Part shown: one piece after another, positions 48,778-59,040 of the stretch
Layout: every line of letters begins with the position of its first letter
How positions within the stretch are numbered: position 1 is the first letter of the stretch
Assembly: GCA_937944385.1 (NCBI GenBank)
Contig: CALDYQ010000010.1
Coordinates: 1-62,777, forward strand
Origin: an uncultured Burkholderiales bacterium
Lineage (GTDB): Bacteria; Pseudomonadota; Gammaproteobacteria; Burkholderiales; Casimicrobiaceae
DNA: 62,777 nt
Reading direction: 5' to 3'
The notes under the pieces: model-generated
Seen by the model: only the letters and a program-made list of their open reading frames with translations
Told to the model about the DNA's origin: nothing
Database searches by the model: none
Program-made: the position numbers and the translations under genes

Positions 48778-49416
48778 TCAGACTCGTGCCGCGACCGTGG
48801 TCATCACGCGAGCAGCTGCCCGCATCGCTGTTTGTACGAGCCACGGCATCGGTTCGGCGCCGAGCTTTCGAGCAGTCTGAGCATGGGCCGCCTCGTCGGC
48901 TTTCATTTGCGCGACGATCGCGCGGGACACGGCATCGCCCTCCGGCAGACGATCGAGATGTCCGCTGAGATGCGCCTCGACCTGCTCCTCTGTGACCTGG
49001 AGGAAGGCCAGCGACTTTCCGTCGCCGAGGGCAGCAGCAGCGGCACCCAGGGCGACCGCGCCTGCATACCAAAACGGATCCAACAGGCTCGTACGACCGC
49101 CGAGGGCTTCCACACGCTCACGCGTCCAGGCGAGGTGATCGAGTTCCTCGTTAGCAGCGGCCGCCAGTTCCTTTTGGACGGCGGGATGCCGGGCAAAAAG
49201 CGCCTGACCTTGATAGAGCCCCTGAGCGGCGACTTCGCCTGCGTGGTTTACGCGCATCAGGGCGATCGAGCGCGCCTGTTCTTCTGGAGTGAGTTCGACG
49301 CTGGGGACGGTTGCGCCGGGCGTAGGCCGGCGGGCGTCCACCGCACCCGTCACCGCACGCAATCCCCGATCGGCCATGCGAATGAGTACATCGGTGATTG
49401 AAGCAGGCGAAGCCAT
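48778..49416 (-). CDS. coq7: 2-octaprenyl-3-methyl-6-methoxy-benzoquinol hydroxylase, Coq7 type
   Basis: A 212-aa diiron hydroxylase of ubiquinone synthesis. The iron-binding motifs are NHAGEVAAQ, NEELDHLAW, TEEQVEAHL and KADEAAHAQTA. It belongs to the short bacterial Coq7 type. I chose ATG at 49416; a GTG at 49431 is also possible but abuts the terminator U-tract of the porin gene. No other ubi gene is near. Confidence 0.95.
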   Translation of the reverse strand: MASPASITDVLIRMADRGLRAVTGAVDARRPTPGATVPSVELTPEEQARSIALMRVNHAGEVAAQGLYQGQALFARHPAVQKELAAAANEELDHLAWTRERVEALGGRTSLLDPFWYAGAVALGAAAAALGDGKSLAFLQVTEEQVEAHLSGHLDRLPEGDAVSRAIVAQMKADEAAHAQTARKLGAEPMPWLVQTAMRAAARVMTTVAARV

Positions 49417-49432
49417 CAGACGGAAACTCACG

Positions 49433-49488: not shown

Positions 49489-50619
49489 TCAGAAGCTGTG
49501 CCAGAGGCCCAGCGCGAAGGCGTTGATCTTGGTCTTGCCGCCGAGGTTGTTCGGGTTGATGATGGTACGCTCGTTCTCGAGCGTCGTGTAGTAGCCGCGA
49601 AGCAGGGTTCGCTTCGAGAGCGCATAGTCCGCGGTGAGCGACAGGTGCTTACCGCCACCGTTGTTCCATTGCGCAAGTGTCGCTGCGTTGACGGCAAGCG
49701 TTTGTGTGAGCGGATTGTATCCGGCAGCTAGGCCCTTGTCGCGTGTCGAGTACTGAACGCCGAGCGTCCACGGGCCCATCGGTGCGAGCGCGCCGATTTC
49801 CCAGTAGCGATACTTAAGCGCGACGGGAAGCTTGTAACGCGCCTGTTCGATCGTGCCGTCGATCATGACCGGCCCCGCATTGAACGATGCGTAAGCACGC
49901 ATCGCCTGCTGGTCATGCAGGGCGACGACAGAGCCGAGGCCCGTGAAATTGTTGTGTTGGGCGAAAGCCACGCCAAGACGGAACGGACCCTGCGTAAAAC
50001 GCACCGAGGTGTCCCAGCCAGTGCACCGGGTGCCGGCGGTCTCGCCGATGATCCCGTAATGCGTACGCAGCGTCAGACCGCCGACGGTGGGCGTCTGGTA
50101 GCTGATCGAGTTGGAATACCGCGCGTCGAATGCGCTGCTCGTGCAGTTCGCGGGCGAAGAGTAGGTCGAAAACAAGTCACGCTTAGCAAAGCCCGCGCCA
50201 CCGGAGAGACCGTTATTGCGGTTTTCCCAGCTGTTCGCGCCTTGGTGGTGCGCCCAACCAAGCACATCGTCATAGGCGGTCAGCCCATGACCCAGCCGCA
50301 GCGTCCCGAAGCCCCCCTGGAGTCCCACCCAGCTTTCGCGCGTGAAGCCGCCCCCGGCACCGGTGTCGCTGGCAAACGCGCCTTCCATCTGGAAGATGGC
50401 GGTCAAACCGCCACCAAGATTCTCGCTGCCGCGGAAGCCAAAGCGCGAGGAGATGTTTTCCTGCGAGATGATACGCGCGGAACCCTGCGGGCCCTTGTAC
50501 TGCGCGACTTCCATCGCGGTGCGGATGCCACCATAGAGCGTGACGTTGGCCGTTTGCGCGAACGCAGCGGACGACGCAAGCGCGATCGCGGCGGCGATGA
50601 GGGTTCTTTGAAACTTCAT
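49489..50619 (-). CDS. General porin (betaproteobacterial OmpC-like), first copy
   Basis: A 376-aa outer-membrane beta-barrel of the gram-negative porin family. A signal peptide MKFQRTLIAAAIALASSAAF ends with an AQ cut site, and TANVTLYGGIRTAME begins the first strand. SRFGFRGSENLGGGL and WVGLQGGFGTLRLGHG are family motifs, and it ends LWHSF with a terminal Phe for assembly. It would allow diffusion of small solutes. It lies downstream of a related porin gene and has its own terminator. Confidence 0.95.
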   Translation of the reverse strand: MKFQRTLIAAAIALASSAAFAQTANVTLYGGIRTAMEVAQYKGPQGSARIISQENISSRFGFRGSENLGGGLTAIFQMEGAFASDTGAGGGFTRESWVGLQGGFGTLRLGHGLTAYDDVLGWAHHQGANSWENRNNGLSGGAGFAKRDLFSTYSSPANCTSSAFDARYSNSISYQTPTVGGLTLRTHYGIIGETAGTRCTGWDTSVRFTQGPFRLGVAFAQHNNFTGLGSVVALHDQQAMRAYASFNAGPVMIDGTIEQARYKLPVALKYRYWEIGALAPMGPWTLGVQYSTRDKGLAAGYNPLTQTLAVNAATLAQWNNGGGKHLSLTADYALSKRTLLRGYYTTLENERTIINPNNLGGKTKINAFALGLWHSF

Positions 50620-50757: not shown

Positions 50758-51792
50758 TTAGAAGCGGTGACGCATACCGACCGCGATGATGCGCTTGTCG
50801 GAGCCGAACTGCTGCGTCACACCACCGAAGCCACCGGCGTTGATGTTGCTGGCCGCGTTGTTGTCGGCATTCGCAAAACGGAAGTACAGGTTGCTGCGCT
50901 TCGACAGGTTGTAGTCGGCGCCCACGTCAAACAGCGTCTGCTTGGCCGCACCGACCTTGCCCTGGCCAAACTGGGCAACGAGCCCGATGTTACCCATCGG
51001 GACGTTCACACCAAGGTGCCAGCCCTTGAACGTGGTGGGGAAGACATACTTGGCGTCGACATAGGTGCCCGAAACCGTGGCGACACCCGCATCGAACTTG
51101 CCGCCCAGCGTCATGTGACGGCCGGCGTTATTGCCGTTTTGGTCCTTGACGTCGACCCAAGCCGCGCCGACGTACAGCGGACCGTTTTTGAATTCGCCGT
51201 TGAAGCCGATGAGGCGTTTAGCCGACGTACTGACTGCGGACTCGCCGAAGCCGTACATCGCAGCCATCGTGAAGCCGCCCATGTTGGCCGACTTCCAGTT
51301 GATGCTGTTGTCGATGCGCAAGGCGCCTGGCAGGCCGAGGTAGTGGTTGCTCTCGACGGAGAAGCTGGTGCAGCCCTCTGCCGAAGCCGTGCAGAAGACG
51401 TGGAACGACGGCGAGTACTGGCGGCCGAGCGTGACCGCACCGAAGCCGCCCGACAGACCCACGACCGCCTGACGACCAAAGATACGGCCACCCTGACCCG
51501 TCATACCCGTGTCGCTCGCAAAACCACCTTCGAGCGTAAAGATAGCGTTCAGGCCACCACCCAGCGACTCCGAGCCGCGCAGGCCCCAACGGGAGCCGGA
51601 CAGACCACCCGCTTCCACTGCGCTAATCGACGCACTGGGGGTCGGCGCACCCGTGGCCGTGCGGCCGGCGCTTGTACGGATGTTGGCGATGTACGTATCC
51701 ACGACGCCGTAGAGCGTCACGTTTGCGGTCTGCGCAGAAGCTGCGCCAGCTGCGATGGCGCTGACGGCCAAAGCAATCAATTTCACTTTCAT
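50758..51792 (-). CDS. General porin (betaproteobacterial OmpC-like), second copy
   Basis: A 344-aa outer-membrane porin. The signal peptide MKVKLIALAVSAIAAGAASA is followed by QTANVTLYGVVDTYI. SRWGLRGSESLGGGLNAIF and the GRQYSPSF segment are typical, and the protein ends GMRHRF with terminal Phe. It shares N-terminal and barrel motifs with the porin downstream, so the pair is probably a tandem duplication that has diverged. The upstream region has tandem 14-bp repeats. Confidence 0.95.
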   Translation of the reverse strand: MKVKLIALAVSAIAAGAASAQTANVTLYGVVDTYIANIRTSAGRTATGAPTPSASISAVEAGGLSGSRWGLRGSESLGGGLNAIFTLEGGFASDTGMTGQGGRIFGRQAVVGLSGGFGAVTLGRQYSPSFHVFCTASAEGCTSFSVESNHYLGLPGALRIDNSINWKSANMGGFTMAAMYGFGESAVSTSAKRLIGFNGEFKNGPLYVGAAWVDVKDQNGNNAGRHMTLGGKFDAGVATVSGTYVDAKYVFPTTFKGWHLGVNVPMGNIGLVAQFGQGKVGAAKQTLFDVGADYNLSKRSNLYFRFANADNNAASNINAGGFGGVTQQFGSDKRIIAVGMRHRF

Positions 51793-52068: not shown

Positions 52069-54906
52069 ATGCTATTTCCTGATCGCCTCGTCGAATCGGG
52101 GGCGCTGATCGTCCTGGCTGCGCTGGTGACCTCGACGATTGGCTTCCTGATGTTGCGGGGCATCCTGCCGACCCCGCTCAGCGCGCCCTCGCCGCGGTCG
52201 CTGCATGCCGCCCCGGTCCCGCGCGGCGGCGGCTTGGGCATCGCGGCGTCTCTCCTTGCCTGCGCTGCGGCGTATGGCCTGGTGCCCGCCGAGAACGGGA
52301 GCAGGCTGACTCTGGTCATCGCGCTGGCTGCGGTCTGGGCCGTCTCCGCATTGGACGATTGGATCGGCGTGGCGGCGCGCTGGAGGCTGGTCGTCCATGC
52401 CGCCGCCGCAGCCGCGCTGACCCGAGCTCTCTTGCCTTCCGAAACGTTTCCGATCTTCACTTTGTTGTCGGCTATTGCGCTGATCTGGGCTGTCAATTTC
52501 TACAACTTCATGGATGGCGCCGATGGAGTCGCCGCCGGTTCAGCCGTCACTATTGGGGCGACTTTCCTGGTGCTGGCGTCGGCAGCGCCAGCCCCTGCGA
52601 GCGTGCTGGATGTGCGTTCGCTCTGCCTCGTCGTGCTGGGCGCAGCGGCCGCGTTTCTCGTCTTCAATCGGCCGCCAGCGCGCATTTTCATGGGCGACGG
52701 CGGCTCCACCCTGCTCGGACTCACCCTCGGCGTCGTCGCCCTGGCCGGCGCGGCTGATGGGCGGTGGTCCCTCGGTGCCGCGGTCCTGCCGTTCACGCCG
52801 CTCTGGGCGGATGCAACCTTCACGCTCCTCCGCCGGTTGCGGCAGGGGCATCACCCTGCGGTCGCGCATCGCGATCACCTCTATCAACGCTTCGTTCTCG
52901 CGGGCGCCGGCCATGGCGGTCTGCTCGCCTGGATCACCGCTTGGAACATGCTCTCCGGGGTCGCCGCGTGGGTAGTGCGTGATGCGTCGGCGCTTGCGAG
53001 TGTGGCGACCGCGCTCGGTCTGGCCGCTCTGTACCTTGTCTCGACTCACGAGGCGATCCGACGGCAGCCGCATTGGGTGATCAACCCGCGCGCCTTGTTC
53101 GCGCTGCTCTACGACGTCGGCGCGGCCGCGGCGCTCTGGGTGGCGCTGTTCTGGGTGCGCTTCAATATTGCCATCGACGAGCGAGATTTCACCCCTCAGG
53201 ACGTGCTCCTGTCGCTCGCGTGGATGCTGCCCATCCACATCGGCGTGTTCGTGGGCTTTGGTCTCTACCGGGGCCTCTGGCGGTACGCGTCGATCACTGA
53301 CCTTCTGCGCATCATCTACGCCACGCTCACGGCGACGGCAGTCACCGTGATCTCGCTCGCCCTGATCCGTCCGGAGTCGTTCATCTGGCCACGGTCTGTG
53401 GTGCTGCTGCATCCGTTCCTGCTCATCGTGCTGATGGGTGGCGCGCGCATGGCCTACCGCAGCTGGAAGGAACACACGCTGTTCGGGCTCAACGCCGCGC
53501 GCGGCGAACCCGTCATCGTGCTCGGCGCGGGCGACACCGGCGCACGCCTCGTCAACGAACTGAAGCGCACGCCCGAGTGGCGCGTGGTCGCGCTCCTCGA
53601 CGACGACCCGACGACGTTCGGCGCGCGCCTGCATGACGTCCCGGTCGTAGGCTCGCTCGCACGCCTACAGGAGGTGGCCGAGACCTTTGGTGCCCGTCAT
53701 GCCATCGTGGCGATGCCGCGCGCCGGGGCGGCCGCCCGCAAACGTGCGGCCGAGCTTGCGACCGCGGCCGGGATGCGTCTCTTGACCATGCCTTCCTACG
53801 AGCAACTCCTGAGCGGCACCGCCCATGTCGGTCAACTCCGAGCAGTCGAACTCGAAGATCTGCTCGGGCGGGAGCCGGTCAGCCTGGACCAGGCCGGTCT
53901 TGAGGACTGGTTGGGCGGGCAATGCGTGCTCGTGACCGGGGCCGGAGGGTCGATCGGCACCGAACTCGCCCACCAGATCGCCCGCTTCGGGCCCGCCCGT
54001 CTGGTGCTTCTCGATCTCTCGGAGTTCGCAGCCCACACGGTGACCGAGCGGATGATTGCGCTACTTGGCCAGGAGCGTGTGGAGACCTATGTTGCGGACG
54101 TCCGCGATGCAACCCGAATGCGGAGGATCCTCGGCCGAGAGCGACCGCGCGCCGTCTTCCATGCGGCGGCCTACAAGCATGTGCCGCTCACGGAGACGGT
54201 CAATGCCTGGGAGGCGCTTCGCAACAACGCGCTGGGTACCCTCGTGGCCGGTCAGGCGGCCATCGCGGCCGGCGTCGAGAAGTTCGTGCTCATCTCCACC
54301 GACAAGGCCGTCCGTCCGGCAAGCATCATGGGCGCGAGCAAGCGTCTCGCAGAGATGATCTGCGCAAACATCGACACGGCCGGAGCGCGCACCCAGTTCA
54401 TGGCGGTGCGCTTTGGCAACGTCCTGGGTAGCAATGGCAGCGTGATTCCGAAGTTCCGTGCCCAAATCGCCACAGGCGGACCCGTCACCGTGACGCACCC
54501 GGAGATGACGCGTTACTTCATGTCGATCCCGGAGGCCACCCAGCTCGTGCTGCAGGCCGGGTTGCTGGGCCGACAGGGTGACCTGTTCGTGCTCGACATG
54601 GGCGAGCCGATGTCGATTCTTGAGCTTGCGCGTTCGTTGATCCGGCTCGCCCACGGCCAGCCCGATGCGGTGCCCATCGTCTTCACCGGACTACGCCCCG
54701 GCGAAAAACTCCACGAGGAGCTGCTCGCGGAGCATGAGACGTTCGTGGCGACCGATCACCCGAAGCTACGGCGCGTCCGTGCGGAGCTGGTCCGCACGAT
54801 CGACGTCGCTGCCCTGGCCGAGTGGCTCGCCGGCCCCGAGCCCGAAGATTTGCGGGCATCGCTCAAACGATGGGTGCCAGACTTCAGCCCGCCTGCAGCG
54901 CACTGA
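52069..54906 (+). CDS. Fusion: WecA/WbpL-type phosphoglycosyl transferase plus WbpM/FlaA1-type UDP-sugar dehydratase
   Basis: A 945-aa membrane protein. Residues 1-325 are a polytopic polyprenyl-phosphate sugar-1-phosphate transferase with LDDWIG (95-100), NFMDGADG (146-153), FMGDGGS (207-213) and HRDHLYQR (267-274). Residues 340-460 form the four-helix membrane part of WbpM/PglF-type proteins. Then comes a Rossmann domain (VIVLGAGDTGA, about 482-492) and the dehydratase: GAGGSIG (624-630), ISTDKA (742-747) and the atypical Met-x3-Lys site (Met754, Lys758) found in WbpM instead of Tyr-Lys. All motifs of both activities are intact. Predicted to make a UDP-4-keto-6-deoxy sugar and start an envelope glycan on undecaprenyl phosphate. 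Convergent with msbA; no other glycan genes adjoin. Confidence 0.92.
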   Translation: MLFPDRLVESGALIVLAALVTSTIGFLMLRGILPTPLSAPSPRSLHAAPVPRGGGLGIAASLLACAAAYGLVPAENGSRLTLVIALAAVWAVSALDDWIGVAARWRLVVHAAAAAALTRALLPSETFPIFTLLSAIALIWAVNFYNFMDGADGVAAGSAVTIGATFLVLASAAPAPASVLDVRSLCLVVLGAAAAFLVFNRPPARIFMGDGGSTLLGLTLGVVALAGAADGRWSLGAAVLPFTPLWADATFTLLRRLRQGHHPAVAHRDHLYQRFVLAGAGHGGLLAWITAWNMLSGVAAWVVRDASALASVATALGLAALYLVSTHEAIRRQPHWVINPRALFALLYDVGAAAALWVALFWVRFNIAIDERDFTPQDVLLSLAWMLPIHIGVFVGFGLYRGLWRYASITDLLRIIYATLTATAVTVISLALIRPESFIWPRSVVLLHPFLLIVLMGGARMAYRSWKEHTLFGLNAARGEPVIVLGAGDTGARLVNELKRTPEWRVVALLDDDPTTFGARLHDVPVVGSLARLQEVAETFGARHAIVAMPRAGAAARKRAAELATAAGMRLLTMPSYEQLLSGTAHVGQLRAVELEDLLGREPVSLDQAGLEDWLGGQCVLVTGAGGSIGTELAHQIARFGPARLVLLDLSEFAAHTVTERMIALLGQERVETYVADVRDATRMRRILGRERPRAVFHAAAYKHVPLTETVNAWEALRNNALGTLVAGQAAIAAGVEKFVLISTDKAVRPASIMGASKRLAEMICANIDTAGARTQFMAVRFGNVLGSNGSVIPKFRAQIATGGPVTVTHPEMTRYFMSIPEATQLVLQAGLLGRQGDLFVLDMGEPMSILELARSLIRLAHGQPDAVPIVFTGLRPGEKLHEELLAEHETFVATDHPKLRRVRAELVRTIDVAALAEWLAGPEPEDLRASLKRWVPDFSPPAAH

Positions 54907-56755
54907 GGCGCGCGTAGACCCCGCCCTGGGCCAGCAACTCGTCGTGCGTTCCCGCCTCGACCAACCGCCCCCCGTGCATGACGTAGATGCGGTCCGCATC
55001 GCGCACGGTCGACAGGCGATGCGCCACATGCACGAGAGTGCGCCGCTCGGGCAGGCGTCGGAGTGCCTCGACCACCGCCGCTTCGGACGCGCTGTCGAGC
55101 GCCGAGGTCGCCTCGTCAAAGAGCAGAATCGGTGCCGGCCGATAGAGCGCACGAGCGATCGCGATGCGCTGTCGTTGCCCGCCCGAGAGAAGACTACCGC
55201 CTTCACCGACCCGGGTCTCGTACCCTGCGGGCAAGGCTGCGATGAACTCCGCTGCGGCGGCGGCCTCGGCCGCCCAGCGCACGCGGTCCATGTCGACGGC
55301 CTCCGCGCCAAACGCGATATTGGCGGCGACTGTGTCGTTGAGCAGCAGGACATCCTGTGACACGAGCGTGACCGCGCGCCTCAGGACCACCGCCGTGGCC
55401 TCCGAGGCGATGACGCCACCCACCTCCACCCGTCCCGACTGCGGCGGGTAGAAACCCGCGATGAGCGCAATCACGCTCGACTTGCCGCCGCCGGAGGCAC
55501 CAACGAAAGCCACCCGCTCGCCGGGCGCAATCATGAAGCTCACCTCGACGAGCGCCGCCTCCTCGCGCGTCGGATAAGCAAATGAGACCCGCTCGAAACG
55601 GATCGCGCCCTCTGCGCTCATCGGCAGCGTCTCGCCGGAGTGACCCGGGGAGGATGGCTCAGCGCGTGTGTCGGCGATCGCAAAAAGCGACCCCGCCGCC
55701 GCGAGGCCGCGTTGGAGCACCGCATTGACCGAGGAGAGCGCCTTGAGCGGCGGCAGCACTGAAAGCAGCGCCGTGAAGAACACGAAGAACTCGCCCGCGG
55801 TCATGCGCCCCTGCTGACCTTCGACGATCGCAAGCGCGACGATTCCAGCGATGGCAAAAGAGACCGAGAGATGAATGAGCGGGGCAGCAAGCGCGTTGGC
55901 CCGCTCCTGCTTCATGTACGACTGCCTCACGGCGTTCGCGCGCATACCGAACCGCTCCTCCAGCATGGCAAAGGCAGAAAACACCTTCACCGTGCGCTGG
56001 TTGCGCAGCCCCTCGTCGGTGAAGCGCGCGAGCTCGCCCATCTGCGTCTGCATTGCCTCGCTCGCCGAGCGCAGCCTTCGGGTGATGCTCCGCACGACGA
56101 TCGCCACGAGCGGCGCCACCACGAACACGACGAGCATGAGCCGCCAGCTCACTGCCGCCATGAGCATGAGCGCAGCGATGAGCTTCAGGCTGTCCTGCAC
56201 GAGGGCGGTCAGCGCCTGCGAGGTGGCCTGACCGACCTGCTGGGCGTCATAGGTGATGCGTGAGGTCAGCTCGGCCGGCGGATGGCGGTCGAACCACGCC
56301 ACGGGCAAGCGCAGCAGATGCGCAAACGTGTCGCGGCGAATGTCGTAGACCACACGACTTGCGACCCAGTGCAGCCCCGTGTCCCCGGCAAAGTTGGCCG
56401 CACCACGCAGGACGAACACGGCCACGAGCAAGAGCGGAAACCAAAGAATCGGGATCTCCGAAAGCAAAGCCGTGACCGGTGCGAGGAAGGACTGCGAAAG
56501 CCCGCCGCTCATGGCGGCACCCGATGCCGATGTGCTTGTGCCGACTGTCTGCGCGGCGTCGGGCGACGAGGTCGCTGCGAAACCGCGATCGACGATCTGC
56601 GCGAAGGACAGCGTGATCAGCGGCTCGACGAGCGAAACCAGCGCCAGAGCGAGCGCGGCAGCCATGAGGCGCCCGCGATACGGGCGCGCATAGCCCAACA
56701 GGCGCCGATAGCGCGCCACGTCGCCGGTGGTCACCAGTCGAGGCTTGGGCTCCAT
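54884..56755 (-). CDS. msbA: MsbA-like ABC transporter (lipid A / lipid flippase type)
   Basis: A 623-aa half-transporter with a six-helix membrane domain (about 1-340) fused to an ATPase. Walker A is GASGGGKSS, the signature is LLSGGQRQR, Walker B is ILLFDEATSALD and the H-loop is in VAHRLSTV. It is most like MsbA-type exporters that flip lipid A core to the periplasmic face, but related type I exporters cannot be excluded. A Thr/Ser/Ala-rich loop follows the first membrane segment. ATG 56755 was chosen over a GTG at 56788. The 3' end overlaps the convergent fusion gene by 23 nt. Confidence 0.85.
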   Translation of the reverse strand: MEPKPRLVTTGDVARYRRLLGYARPYRGRLMAAALALALVSLVEPLITLSFAQIVDRGFAATSSPDAAQTVGTSTSASGAAMSGGLSQSFLAPVTALLSEIPILWFPLLLVAVFVLRGAANFAGDTGLHWVASRVVYDIRRDTFAHLLRLPVAWFDRHPPAELTSRITYDAQQVGQATSQALTALVQDSLKLIAALMLMAAVSWRLMLVVFVVAPLVAIVVRSITRRLRSASEAMQTQMGELARFTDEGLRNQRTVKVFSAFAMLEERFGMRANAVRQSYMKQERANALAAPLIHLSVSFAIAGIVALAIVEGQQGRMTAGEFFVFFTALLSVLPPLKALSSVNAVLQRGLAAAGSLFAIADTRAEPSSPGHSGETLPMSAEGAIRFERVSFAYPTREEAALVEVSFMIAPGERVAFVGASGGGKSSVIALIAGFYPPQSGRVEVGGVIASEATAVVLRRAVTLVSQDVLLLNDTVAANIAFGAEAVDMDRVRWAAEAAAAAEFIAALPAGYETRVGEGGSLLSGGQRQRIAIARALYRPAPILLFDEATSALDSASEAAVVEALRRLPERRTLVHVAHRLSTVRDADRIYVMHGGRLVEAGTHDELLAQGGVYARLSALQAG

Positions 56756-56792
56756 CGTGGGGATTGTTCCACGCCCTGATATCCTCACCAGA

Positions 56793-57023: not shown

Positions 57024-57201
57024 CCGAAGTGGCGCTGCCCAGGCGCCGCTCCGGCTCAAGTGCCGGCGTCGCGGGGCGCGATGATGGGGCGTGTTCGCTT
57101 GTGCTCTCTCGCGTTCTCTCGTCACGCCTGATCGTTGCTTCCCTGACGACGGATTCGTCCATCTGCAGCGCGGAGGGCGCTGCATCGACCGTTCGTCCAT
57201 C
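57024..57201 (+). promoter_or_regulatory. Long expression platform between B12 riboswitch and btuB
   Basis: A 178-nt untranslated leader follows the aptamer. It holds GGCGC-TGCCCAG-GCGCC and CCGGC-TCAAGT-GCCGG hairpins. Near the gene it has GCAGCGC-GGAGG-GCGCTGC (57165-57183), where a Shine-Dalgarno-like GGAGG sits in the loop, 25 nt before the ATG. TTCGTCCATC occurs on both sides of that hairpin (57154-57163 and 57192-57201). Regulation by masking a ribosome entry site is plausible. Confidence 0.5.
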
Positions 57202-59040
57202 ATGTTCAAAGAAAACCCACCCACCCGATTGCGCCGCCTCGCTGCCGCGCTCCTGAGCCTTTCGGCCGCAACGCTCCCAGCCATCAGCTCCGCCCAGACC
57301 CTGATTGAGCCGGTGATCGTCACCGCAACCCGCGCCATCGCACCGGCAGAACCGGCACGCGATACCCTGCGCGATGTCAGCGTGCTCACAGCCGAGGACA
57401 TCGCTGCCTCGGGCGCGGCCGATCTTGCCCAACTGCTCGCCCGCGTACCCGGGGTACAGGTCGCACAGCCCGGTCCGTTTGGCACGCCCTCGTTTTTCCT
57501 GCGCGGCCACAACGCAAACCAGACGCTCGTGCTCATCGACGGCCAGCGTATCGCCTCGGCCTTCAATGGTCTTGCGGCACTCCAGAACCTGGGCCTCGCC
57601 GAGATCGAGCGTATCGAGATCGTGCGCGGCCCGCATGCCAGCCTCTTCGGGGCCGATGCCCTCGGCGGCGTCATCAACGTGATCACGCGGCGGCATGCCG
57701 CGCGTGGTTTCACCGCGACCGTCGGCACGGGGGCCAACGCGCTCATCCGTGCGGCTGCCCAGGGCAGCTCTGCCTTCGGCGACACACGCCTCTCGGCGAG
57801 CGCGAGCCATGAGCGGAGCGACGGCTGGAATGCGATCGTTGATGCGCGCGCTTTCAACTACAACCCCGACCGCGACGGCTGGCGCGTGACGCGTGGCAGC
57901 CTCGACATCGACCATCGGATCGATCGCAAGTGGAATGCTTTCGCCCGCGCGCTCGTCACACGCAGCAACAGCCAGTACGACGGTGGGCCAACCCGGGACG
58001 ATCGCGCGCTCGTCGATCTCTCGGCGCTCTCGGGCGGGGCACGCTACGTCTCCGATCGCTTCTCGAGCGAGCTCACGCTTGCCCAAAGCCGCGAGGCGTC
58101 CGAATTTCTCTCGGCGTTCCCTGGCCGCTACGTGACCCGTAACGAACAGGCGCACGCGCAGGTGCAGGCCGCGCTCGCCCCGGGACTGCGCGGCCAGGCA
58201 CTCATCGAATGGCGCCGCGAGCGGATCGAGGACACCGACCGGCTGCCCGTGAAATCGCGCACGACGACGAGCGGCGTGCTCGGCGCCGACTGGCAGCAGG
58301 GCCCGGCGCGGCTTGCGGGACACCTGCGGCTTGATGACTCCAATCAATTTGGCAGCCGCACGACCGGGAGTCTTTCGGCGGGCTGGCAGGTCACGCCCAC
58401 GCTTCGCGTCGCTGTCAACGGGGGCACGGCGTTCAAGGTGCCGACCTTCAATGACCTTTACTACCCAGGATTCGCCAACCCGAATCTCTTGCCCGAGACA
58501 AGCCGAAGCATCGACGCGAGGATCGTCTGGCAAAGCGGATCCATCCAGTTGACGCTTGCGGGTTATCGCTCCGACGCGCGCGATCTCATTCAGTTCGTTT
58601 GTGACTCGAACTTCAATTGCGCGCCGCAGAACGTCGCGCGGGCGCGGCTCACGGGTGCCACGGCGAGCGCGAGCGCCACGATCGGCGCGATGCGCATCGA
58701 GGCCGCCTTCGATGCGCTCGACCCGAAGAACCGCATCACCGGCAAGCTTCTGCCCAGGCGCGCACGCGAAACCGGGCAACTCACCGTGTCGGGGCCGCTT
58801 GCGACCGGGCTCGAGGTGAGCGGCGCCCTGCGCGCCGTCGGCCGACGCTTCGACGATGCGGCCAACCGAAACCGCCTCCCGGCGTATGAGGTCCTCGACG
58901 TCTCGGCCCGCTGGTCATTCGCGCCGGGATGGCAGCTCGCCGCTGCAGTCGACAACGTGTTCGATCGTGACTATCAGACTGCCCGCGGCTACTCGACTGG
59001 CGGTCGACTCTGGCGGCTCGAGATCACCGGTCGTCTCTGA
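57202..59040 (+). CDS. btuB: TonB-dependent vitamin B12 receptor (BtuB-like)
   Basis: A 612-aa outer-membrane receptor. The signal peptide ends near ISSA (31). The TonB box is EPVIVTAT (36-43). The plug domain (about 55-165) contains GVQVAQPG, FFLRGHNANQTLVLIDG and RIEIVRGPHASLFGADALGG. A beta-barrel with about 22 strands follows. The C-terminus ends LEITGRL. The upstream cobalamin riboswitch and the downstream BtuF-like gene make B12 the likely ligand. ATG 57202 was chosen because the signal peptide begins there. Confidence 0.93.
   Translation: MFKENPPTRLRRLAAALLSLSAATLPAISSAQTLIEPVIVTATRAIAPAEPARDTLRDVSVLTAEDIAASGAADLAQLLARVPGVQVAQPGPFGTPSFFLRGHNANQTLVLIDGQRIASAFNGLAALQNLGLAEIERIEIVRGPHASLFGADALGGVINVITRRHAARGFTATVGTGANALIRAAAQGSSAFGDTRLSASASHERSDGWNAIVDARAFNYNPDRDGWRVTRGSLDIDHRIDRKWNAFARALVTRSNSQYDGGPTRDDRALVDLSALSGGARYVSDRFSSELTLAQSREASEFLSAFPGRYVTRNEQAHAQVQAALAPGLRGQALIEWRRERIEDTDRLPVKSRTTTSGVLGADWQQGPARLAGHLRLDDSNQFGSRTTGSLSAGWQVTPTLRVAVNGGTAFKVPTFNDLYYPGFANPNLLPETSRSIDARIVWQSGSIQLTLAGYRSDARDLIQFVCDSNFNCAPQNVARARLTGATASASATIGAMRIEAAFDALDPKNRITGKLLPRRARETGQLTVSGPLATGLEVSGALRAVGRRFDDAANRNRLPAYEVLDVSARWSFAPGWQLAAAVDNVFDRDYQTARGYSTGGRLWRLEITGRL

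Follow-up and report, generated by a model that had tools for sequence, protein, structure and literature searches.

Results

Organization of the locus

The window, that is the whole stretch of 62,777 nucleotides that was analysed, contains an open reading frame (ORF) of 945 amino acids which starts with ATG and, in the ORF listing and its translation, has no internal stop codon. The frame joins a polytopic phosphoglycosyl transferase (PGT) to a sugar dehydratase (Table 1). All the motifs quoted for the two enzymes in the initial annotation were located within this one frame. Those of the dehydratase half are GAGGSIG (residues 624-630), STDKA (residues 743-747, with T744-D745-K746), M754 and K758.

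Table 1. Features of the fusion gene and its neighbours (positions are those of the window)
Feature	Position	Strand	Basis and occurrence
COQ7	48778-49431	-	Pfam; divergent from the fusion gene; cluster in 9/13 genus loci
Two porins	49489-50619, 50758-51792	-	Pfam; divergent from the fusion gene; cluster in 13/13 genus loci
Fusion gene, stop included	52069..54906	+	ORF, genus alignment
Polytopic PGT half, residues 1-331, 11 predicted membrane helices	52069..53061	+	Pfam PF00953, AlphaFold2, Foldseek
Loop-1 residues 38-41 (S38, S41), cytosolic loop 1	52180..52191	+	Comparison of fused and split PGT rows
D96-D97	52354..52359	+	Invariant or nearly so in PGT alignment
NFMDGADG, residues 146-153	52504..52527	+	N146, F147, M148, D149, G150 and G153 invariant in alignment
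FMGDGGS, residues 207-213	52687..52707	+	Motif placement, PGT alignment
HRDHLYQR, residues 267-274	52867..52890	+	Motif placement, PGT alignment
Linker between predicted helices, residues 332-339 (about 8 residues)	53062..53085	+	AlphaFold2 model, motif placement
Dehydratase membrane anchor, residues 340-470, four predicted helices	53086..53478	+	AlphaFold2 model
CoA_binding_3-like region (PF13727), residues 397-550	53257..53718	+	Pfam, 25.4 bits (cut-off 25), marginal
Dehydratase catalytic domain, residues 620-903	53926..54777	+	Pfam Polysacc_synt_2; PglF structures by sequence and fold
MsbA-like ABC exporter	54884..56788	-	TIGR02203; convergent; in 12/13 genus loci
BtuB-like vitamin B12 receptor, beyond the exporter	57091-59040	+	TIGR01779, 427.9 bits (under the 599.7 cut-off); cluster in 9/13 genus loci

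The neighbour counts in Table 1 refer to 13 loci of the genus, namely the window and loci L149-L160; in L158 the ORF next to the fusion does not match the MsbA-like exporter. The exporter of the window scored 580.7 bits with TIGR02203 (cut-off 602) and 200.3 bits with the model for the glycan flippase PglK (cut-off 1000), scores which place it nearer to MsbA than to PglK. Its 3′ end overlaps that of the fusion gene by 23 bases and, the two genes being convergent, it lies outside the transcription unit of the fusion. No glycan cluster adjoining the fusion gene was seen in the window. The porins, COQ7, the exporter and the BtuB-like receptor thus bear out the earlier description of a gene standing outside any visible glycan cluster and next to an MsbA-like exporter.

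Family assignment of the two halves

Pfam matched Glycos_transf_4 (PF00953) to residues 81-227 with 95.2 bits (cut-off 27) and Polysacc_synt_2 to residues 620-903 with 356.6 bits (cut-off 20.2). The N-terminal half has the domain, the fold and the conserved cytosolic motifs of the polytopic PGT superfamily (MraY/WecA/WbpL): residues D96, D97, N143, N146, D149, G209, D210, H267 and H270 are all present and are invariant, or conserved in at least 90% of rows, in alignment A5. The HRDHLYQR motif is like that of WbpL-type proteins. The Asp and Asn of loop 1, which are usual in polytopic PGTs without defining them, are absent from the fused PGT. With the ECA_wecA model of NCBIfam this half scored 52.7 bits against a cut-off of 326.05, which falls short of an assignment to WecA itself.

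The C-terminal half combines Polysacc_synt_2 with the TDK...Mx3K motif, preceded by N-terminal helices and the marginal CoA_binding_3-like domain. In the class table of PMC8987622, TDK...Mx3K characterizes the WbpM/PglF class and Yx3K the FlaA1/PseB class. Here M754 replaces the Tyr, and the PseB model gave 163.5 bits against a cut-off of 407.75. Of the former designation "WbpM/FlaA1-type", the WbpM part is therefore retained and the FlaA1 part dropped. Among the nine Pfam matches of the fused protein there is no monotopic sugar-transferase catalytic domain of the Bi-PGT or Lg-PGT kind; the EPS_sugtrans, WcaJ and WbaP models match residues 351-595 only, with their own N-terminal part. Judged by domains and motifs, the fused protein is a WecA/WbpL-type polytopic PGT followed by a complete WbpM/PglF-type UDP-GlcNAc 4,6-dehydratase. 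Transfer of a sugar-1-phosphate to polyprenyl phosphate and dehydration of UDP-GlcNAc are the putative roles of the respective halves.

Predicted fold and topology

AlphaFold2 modelled the whole protein (42 rows, alignment A3) with a pLDDT of 90.7 and a pTM of 0.61, and the PGT half alone with 91.9 and 0.91. The predicted fold of the PGT half matched Escherichia coli MraY in Foldseek (E 2.8e-9, TM-score 0.69 over the query) and also human DPAGT1, and a profile search matched this half to 5jnq with an E value of 8.2e-29. For the catalytic domain of the dehydratase, PglF was the best PDB match by sequence and was also matched by fold. The helices read from the model add up to 15. The N terminus of WecA is outside; starting from the same side, the helices of the PGT and of the dehydratase anchor would bring the motifs, the linker and the dehydratase onto one, inner, side of the membrane, with both active sites predicted to be cytosolic. 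The distribution of Lys and Arg, 10 on inner loops and five on outer loops, lends this topology weak support.

Conservation and distribution of the fusion

The whole-protein search of 60 relatives included 17 genomes from the betaproteobacterial genus of the window and 19 from other genera of the same family. An uninterrupted frame runs across the junction in 16 of the 17 genus genomes. Fourteen of these matches are nearly full length, that of G006 starts at residue 125 and that of G003 spans residues 10 to 359 and ends with the contig; the seventeenth genome, G008, has a fragment comprising residues 807-944 only, with the junction outside it. A seamless junction is common to the 15 aligned fused proteins (G003 left out). 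Non-synonymous change was lower than synonymous change in five of five pairs, for both halves as well as for residues 300-360, with synonymous sites near saturation. Since the junction is unbroken in 16 of the 17 genomes, sequencing or assembly error and chance were rejected as the source of the fusion; an error joining two genes was among the objections anticipated in the initial annotation. Together, this junction and the Pfam domains of both enzymes confirmed that two normally separate proteins are fused.

Outside the genus, the whole-protein search gave a full-length single-frame match in none of the 19 same-family genomes. Among the matches listed, stop-free full-length matches from other genera were likewise absent from a scan of the order (399 genomes, 168 of them matching at 1e-140) and from one of the class (369 genomes, 184 matching at 1e-100). 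In the genome_contigs search 80 of 583 confirmed relatives were examined: the only fused one, L040, is on a contig equal in length to that of the genus genome G011 and is apparently a duplicate of that record; the other 79 loci comprised 41 with PGT and dehydratase in separate ORFs and 38 with no PGT in the locus by the PGT query. None of 19 further loci hand-picked for dehydratase frames of at least 918 residues was fused (18 had a separate PGT, one had no PGT nearby). The tblastn matches that spanned both halves, in Nitrosomonas and others, turned out to be separate adjacent genes. A reductase-PGT fusion suspected in L277 was also rejected, the two being on one ORF in none of the fetched loci. 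A widespread fusion can thus be rejected within the genomes searched, and the fusion is apparently restricted to one genus, although a fused protein with a diverged PGT half could escape such searches. Titles and abstracts in the open-licence part of PubMed Central yielded no description of a WecA/WbpL-WbpM fusion, which is weak evidence of absence. Another anticipated objection, that the fusion is already described and widespread, therefore found no support in these searches.

Proposed function

The reading that we prefer, and to which we give about an even chance, takes the protein to be a bifunctional inner-membrane enzyme that loads the 4-keto sugar directly for finishing on the lipid, and that originated by a single stop codon loss. 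The C-terminal dehydratase would make the 4-keto sugar only. The PGT half would take this sugar directly and transfer the sugar-1-phosphate to undecaprenyl phosphate, starting a lipid-linked glycan. A separate enzyme would then finish the sugar on the lipid, either a WbpV-like reductase, such as that found on contig C21 of the window's genome, or an aminotransferase, which is an alternative route for finishing a 4-keto sugar. The earlier proposal was that a single membrane enzyme both makes the sugar and loads it. Both motif sets and the predicted cytosolic sites agree with this, but the account was incomplete, since the dehydratase yields only the 4-keto sugar.

The fusion itself, its conservation, the single clade and the motifs are observed, and the topology and folds are computed predictions; we infer both activities, the order of the steps, the channelling, the stop loss and the final sugar. 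Rhizobium etli reportedly loads the 4-keto precursor of QuiNAc on its carrier lipid before finishing it, an order by which the two fused enzymes would be direct pathway neighbours. Fusions of pathway neighbours are reported for unstable intermediates in a passage of PMC4921024. A narrower version of the preferred reading, which we advance tentatively and rate as less likely than not, pictures a self-contained lipid-linked 4-keto-6-deoxy-GlcNAc synthase: the labile sugar would be handed from the dehydratase to the PGT, and the undecaprenyl-PP-4-keto sugar would be a branch point, finished by a reductase in certain species of the genus and by an aminotransferase in others. Against direct loading counts the low pTM of the whole protein, by which the model does not establish that the two sites face each other.

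The classical order, in which the reductase acts on the nucleotide sugar before the PGT (given in parts of PMC4514872, PMC11320575 and PMC6804347), also counts against the preferred reading, as do reductase genes close to split PGTs, found within 400 bases in 10 of 49 loci and beside the PGT in 8 of 19 loci of the long-dehydratase-frame set. These data count for an alternative, an enzyme that performs the first and the last step, with a soluble WbpK/WbpV-type reductase acting between; the PGT would load UDP-QuiNAc or UDP-FucNAc, and the fusion would merely hold two membrane enzymes together. The pathway would then be as given for Pseudomonas and Accumulibacter (sections of PMC6804347 and PMC11320575), and C21 carries such a reductase. 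However, at 1e-20 members of the reductase family turned up in no more than 7 of the 17 genus genomes, a profile search at 1e-25 recovered them from 4 of 12, and neither search detected one in the one-contig genus genome G005; joining the first and last steps without the middle one is, moreover, a less obvious gain. We consider this explanation possible but rather unlikely.

A reductase is still needed after the dehydratase in the accounts of WbpK/WbpV found in parts of PMC8987622, PMC6804347 and PMC11320575; none was seen near the fusion in the 13 fused loci examined. That of C21, a WbpV/WbpK-like SDR protein (L202:2079-3020, minus strand), is flanked by genes encoding formyl-transferase and RNase PH domains and is 34% identical to the reductase beside the split PGT of L166. 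A DegT-type aminotransferase was found in 16 of the 17 genus genomes at 1e-60. The genes listed are 33-44% identical to the window genome's own, except that of G016 (80.5%), and since such low identity does not support orthology, one aminotransferase as the universal next enzyme was rejected. The window genome's own gene, on C24, has thiolase and dehydroquinate synthase genes in its vicinity; by these neighbours, neither the reductase nor the aminotransferase is in an evident glycan cluster.

The two halves could also have independent jobs, the PGT loading plain GlcNAc like WecA and the sugar made by the dehydratase being used elsewhere in the glycan, with a tether that is neutral or fixes the ratio of the two. 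UDP-GlcNAc could serve both enzymes, and the family match is WecA-like, although at an ECA_wecA score far below the cut-off. The WbpL-like character of HRDHLYQR speaks against it, as does another WecA-like PGT on C17, whose ECA_wecA score (85.6 bits) is also below the cut-off, and we find it improbable.

The PGT of C17 (L198:8404-9726, minus strand) is polytopic and matches PF00953 with 102 bits; two strong matches to the NAD-dependent epimerase family lie a few kb from it. Three genes of the Wzy_C family (O-antigen ligase- or polymerase-like) occur on contigs C6, C45 and C7 (L223-L225), so that glycan genes are dispersed in the window's genome.

Divergence of the fused PGT

Of the PGT positions, 47 show at least 85% constancy across 80 split rows; the fused group differs at three of them, D38 and N41 included. 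D38 is present in 95% and N41 in 89% of the split rows and neither in any of the 14 readable fused rows, the window having S38 and S41. In the dehydratase half, compared over 140 split rows, 10 of 153 constant positions differ in the fused group. The catalytic motifs of both halves are retained. The fused PGT also sits on a long branch (0.95) of the PGT tree. The loop-1 loss and the long branch could mean changed or weakened PGT function, which counts against the preferred reading and, in the extreme, would leave the PGT half without catalysis, serving only as membrane anchor or partner of the dehydratase. We regard so complete a loss as very unlikely, given the purifying selection on this half and the lack of departure at the other 44 highly constant positions.

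Origin of the fusion

The fused proteins form one clade, 14 of 77 rows, in the PGT tree and in the dehydratase tree. Support for this clade was 100/100 in the former, with 100% of 200 bootstraps, and SH-aLRT 100 in the latter, which was built by a quick method. One clade in both trees fits a single origin. In split relatives the dehydratase gene often comes directly after the PGT gene, the two being slightly apart or overlapping. Among the matches listed in the order scan, at least eight genomes carry the two halves in the same frame, parted by a single stop, and one more has two stops. Some split dehydratases start with MNPR. The split pair of L226 reads ...FST*QPFMNPRS (...FST*QPFMNPRSFLAI), where the fused protein of L151 reads ...RRQPNLLMNPRA (...RRQPNLLMNPRAFLALLYD); the Met of MNPR is also retained in the fused proteins of L153, L158 and L022. 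Loss of the stop between such in-frame neighbours would explain the birth of the fusion and is, from these alignments, the simplest account. The fusion would have arisen once, in the ancestor of the genus. Single-stop, one-frame pairs occur in several other families of the order (L226-L231, L025 and others), so that repeated fusion would be expected, yet it was found in one genus only.

A porin is near the split pair in all four same-family loci (L162-L165), with an 803-residue ORF in between in L162. Thus, the locus probably predates the fusion, whose birthplace would be an orphan locus beside a porin gene. The ORF of L162 (11055-13463, minus strand) is strongly hydrophobic and overlaps the start of the split PGT. 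Searches with Pfam at 1e-5 and NCBIfam at 1e-20 gave no match for it; by eye, it could join a flippase-like part to a ligase- or polymerase-like part.

A further alternative is that translation of the dehydratase begins, additionally or exclusively, at an internal codon close to residue 337. Of 15 fused genes, 11 have ATG, GTG or TTG at residues 336-338; in four of these it is an ATG at 338, the place at which some split genes begin with MNPR. TTG is, however, an ordinary leucine codon too, no such codon exists at these residues in L154, L155, L159 and L019, and no ribosome-binding site is evident by eye before the GTG of the window, making an internal start extremely unlikely. That the fusion is an artefact of an assembly in 98 contigs has a negligible probability, the same junction being present in 15 other genomes of the genus.

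Discussion

Both halves belong to known families; the novelty lies in their union in one protein, in the apparent confinement of this form to one genus and in the change in loop 1. A close parallel is WbpL and WbpM of Pseudomonas, the same two enzyme types, which are separate proteins there and one polypeptide here, with a PGT lacking D38 and N41 of loop 1. According to a passage of PMC6804347, plant-associated Pseudomonas retain this pair even when they lack most of the O-antigen cluster. PglF of Campylobacter jejuni resembles the dehydratase half in sequence, fold and the TDK...Mx3K motif but, unlike the fusion, has no PGT attached. The enzymes that initiate with QuiNAc in Rhizobium etli are likewise separate proteins. 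As far as the title of Li and Noel (2017) tells, loading before finishing would there make the joined steps consecutive.

MraY, WecA and DPAGT1 share their fold and conserved residues with the PGT half; Table 1 of PMC10942596 classes them as "PGT only", whereas the fusion carries a second enzyme. It is thus an exception to that published summary for polytopic PGTs. Bi-PGTs, as described in the same source, join a PGT to another functional domain as the fusion does, but their catalytic domain is monotopic and of unrelated fold, that of the fusion being polytopic. A section of PMC10942596 calls the role of the membrane and Rossmann-like domains of full-length WbpM-type dehydratases unclear; with a polytopic PGT and such a dehydratase in one polypeptide, the two could be studied together. 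The fusion points to joint action of the dehydratase and the initiating PGT as a unit and makes the loading of a 4-keto sugar on undecaprenyl phosphate before finishing testable. For the bacteria of this genus, it perhaps lets an unstable sugar be made and fixed to the lipid carrier in one place.
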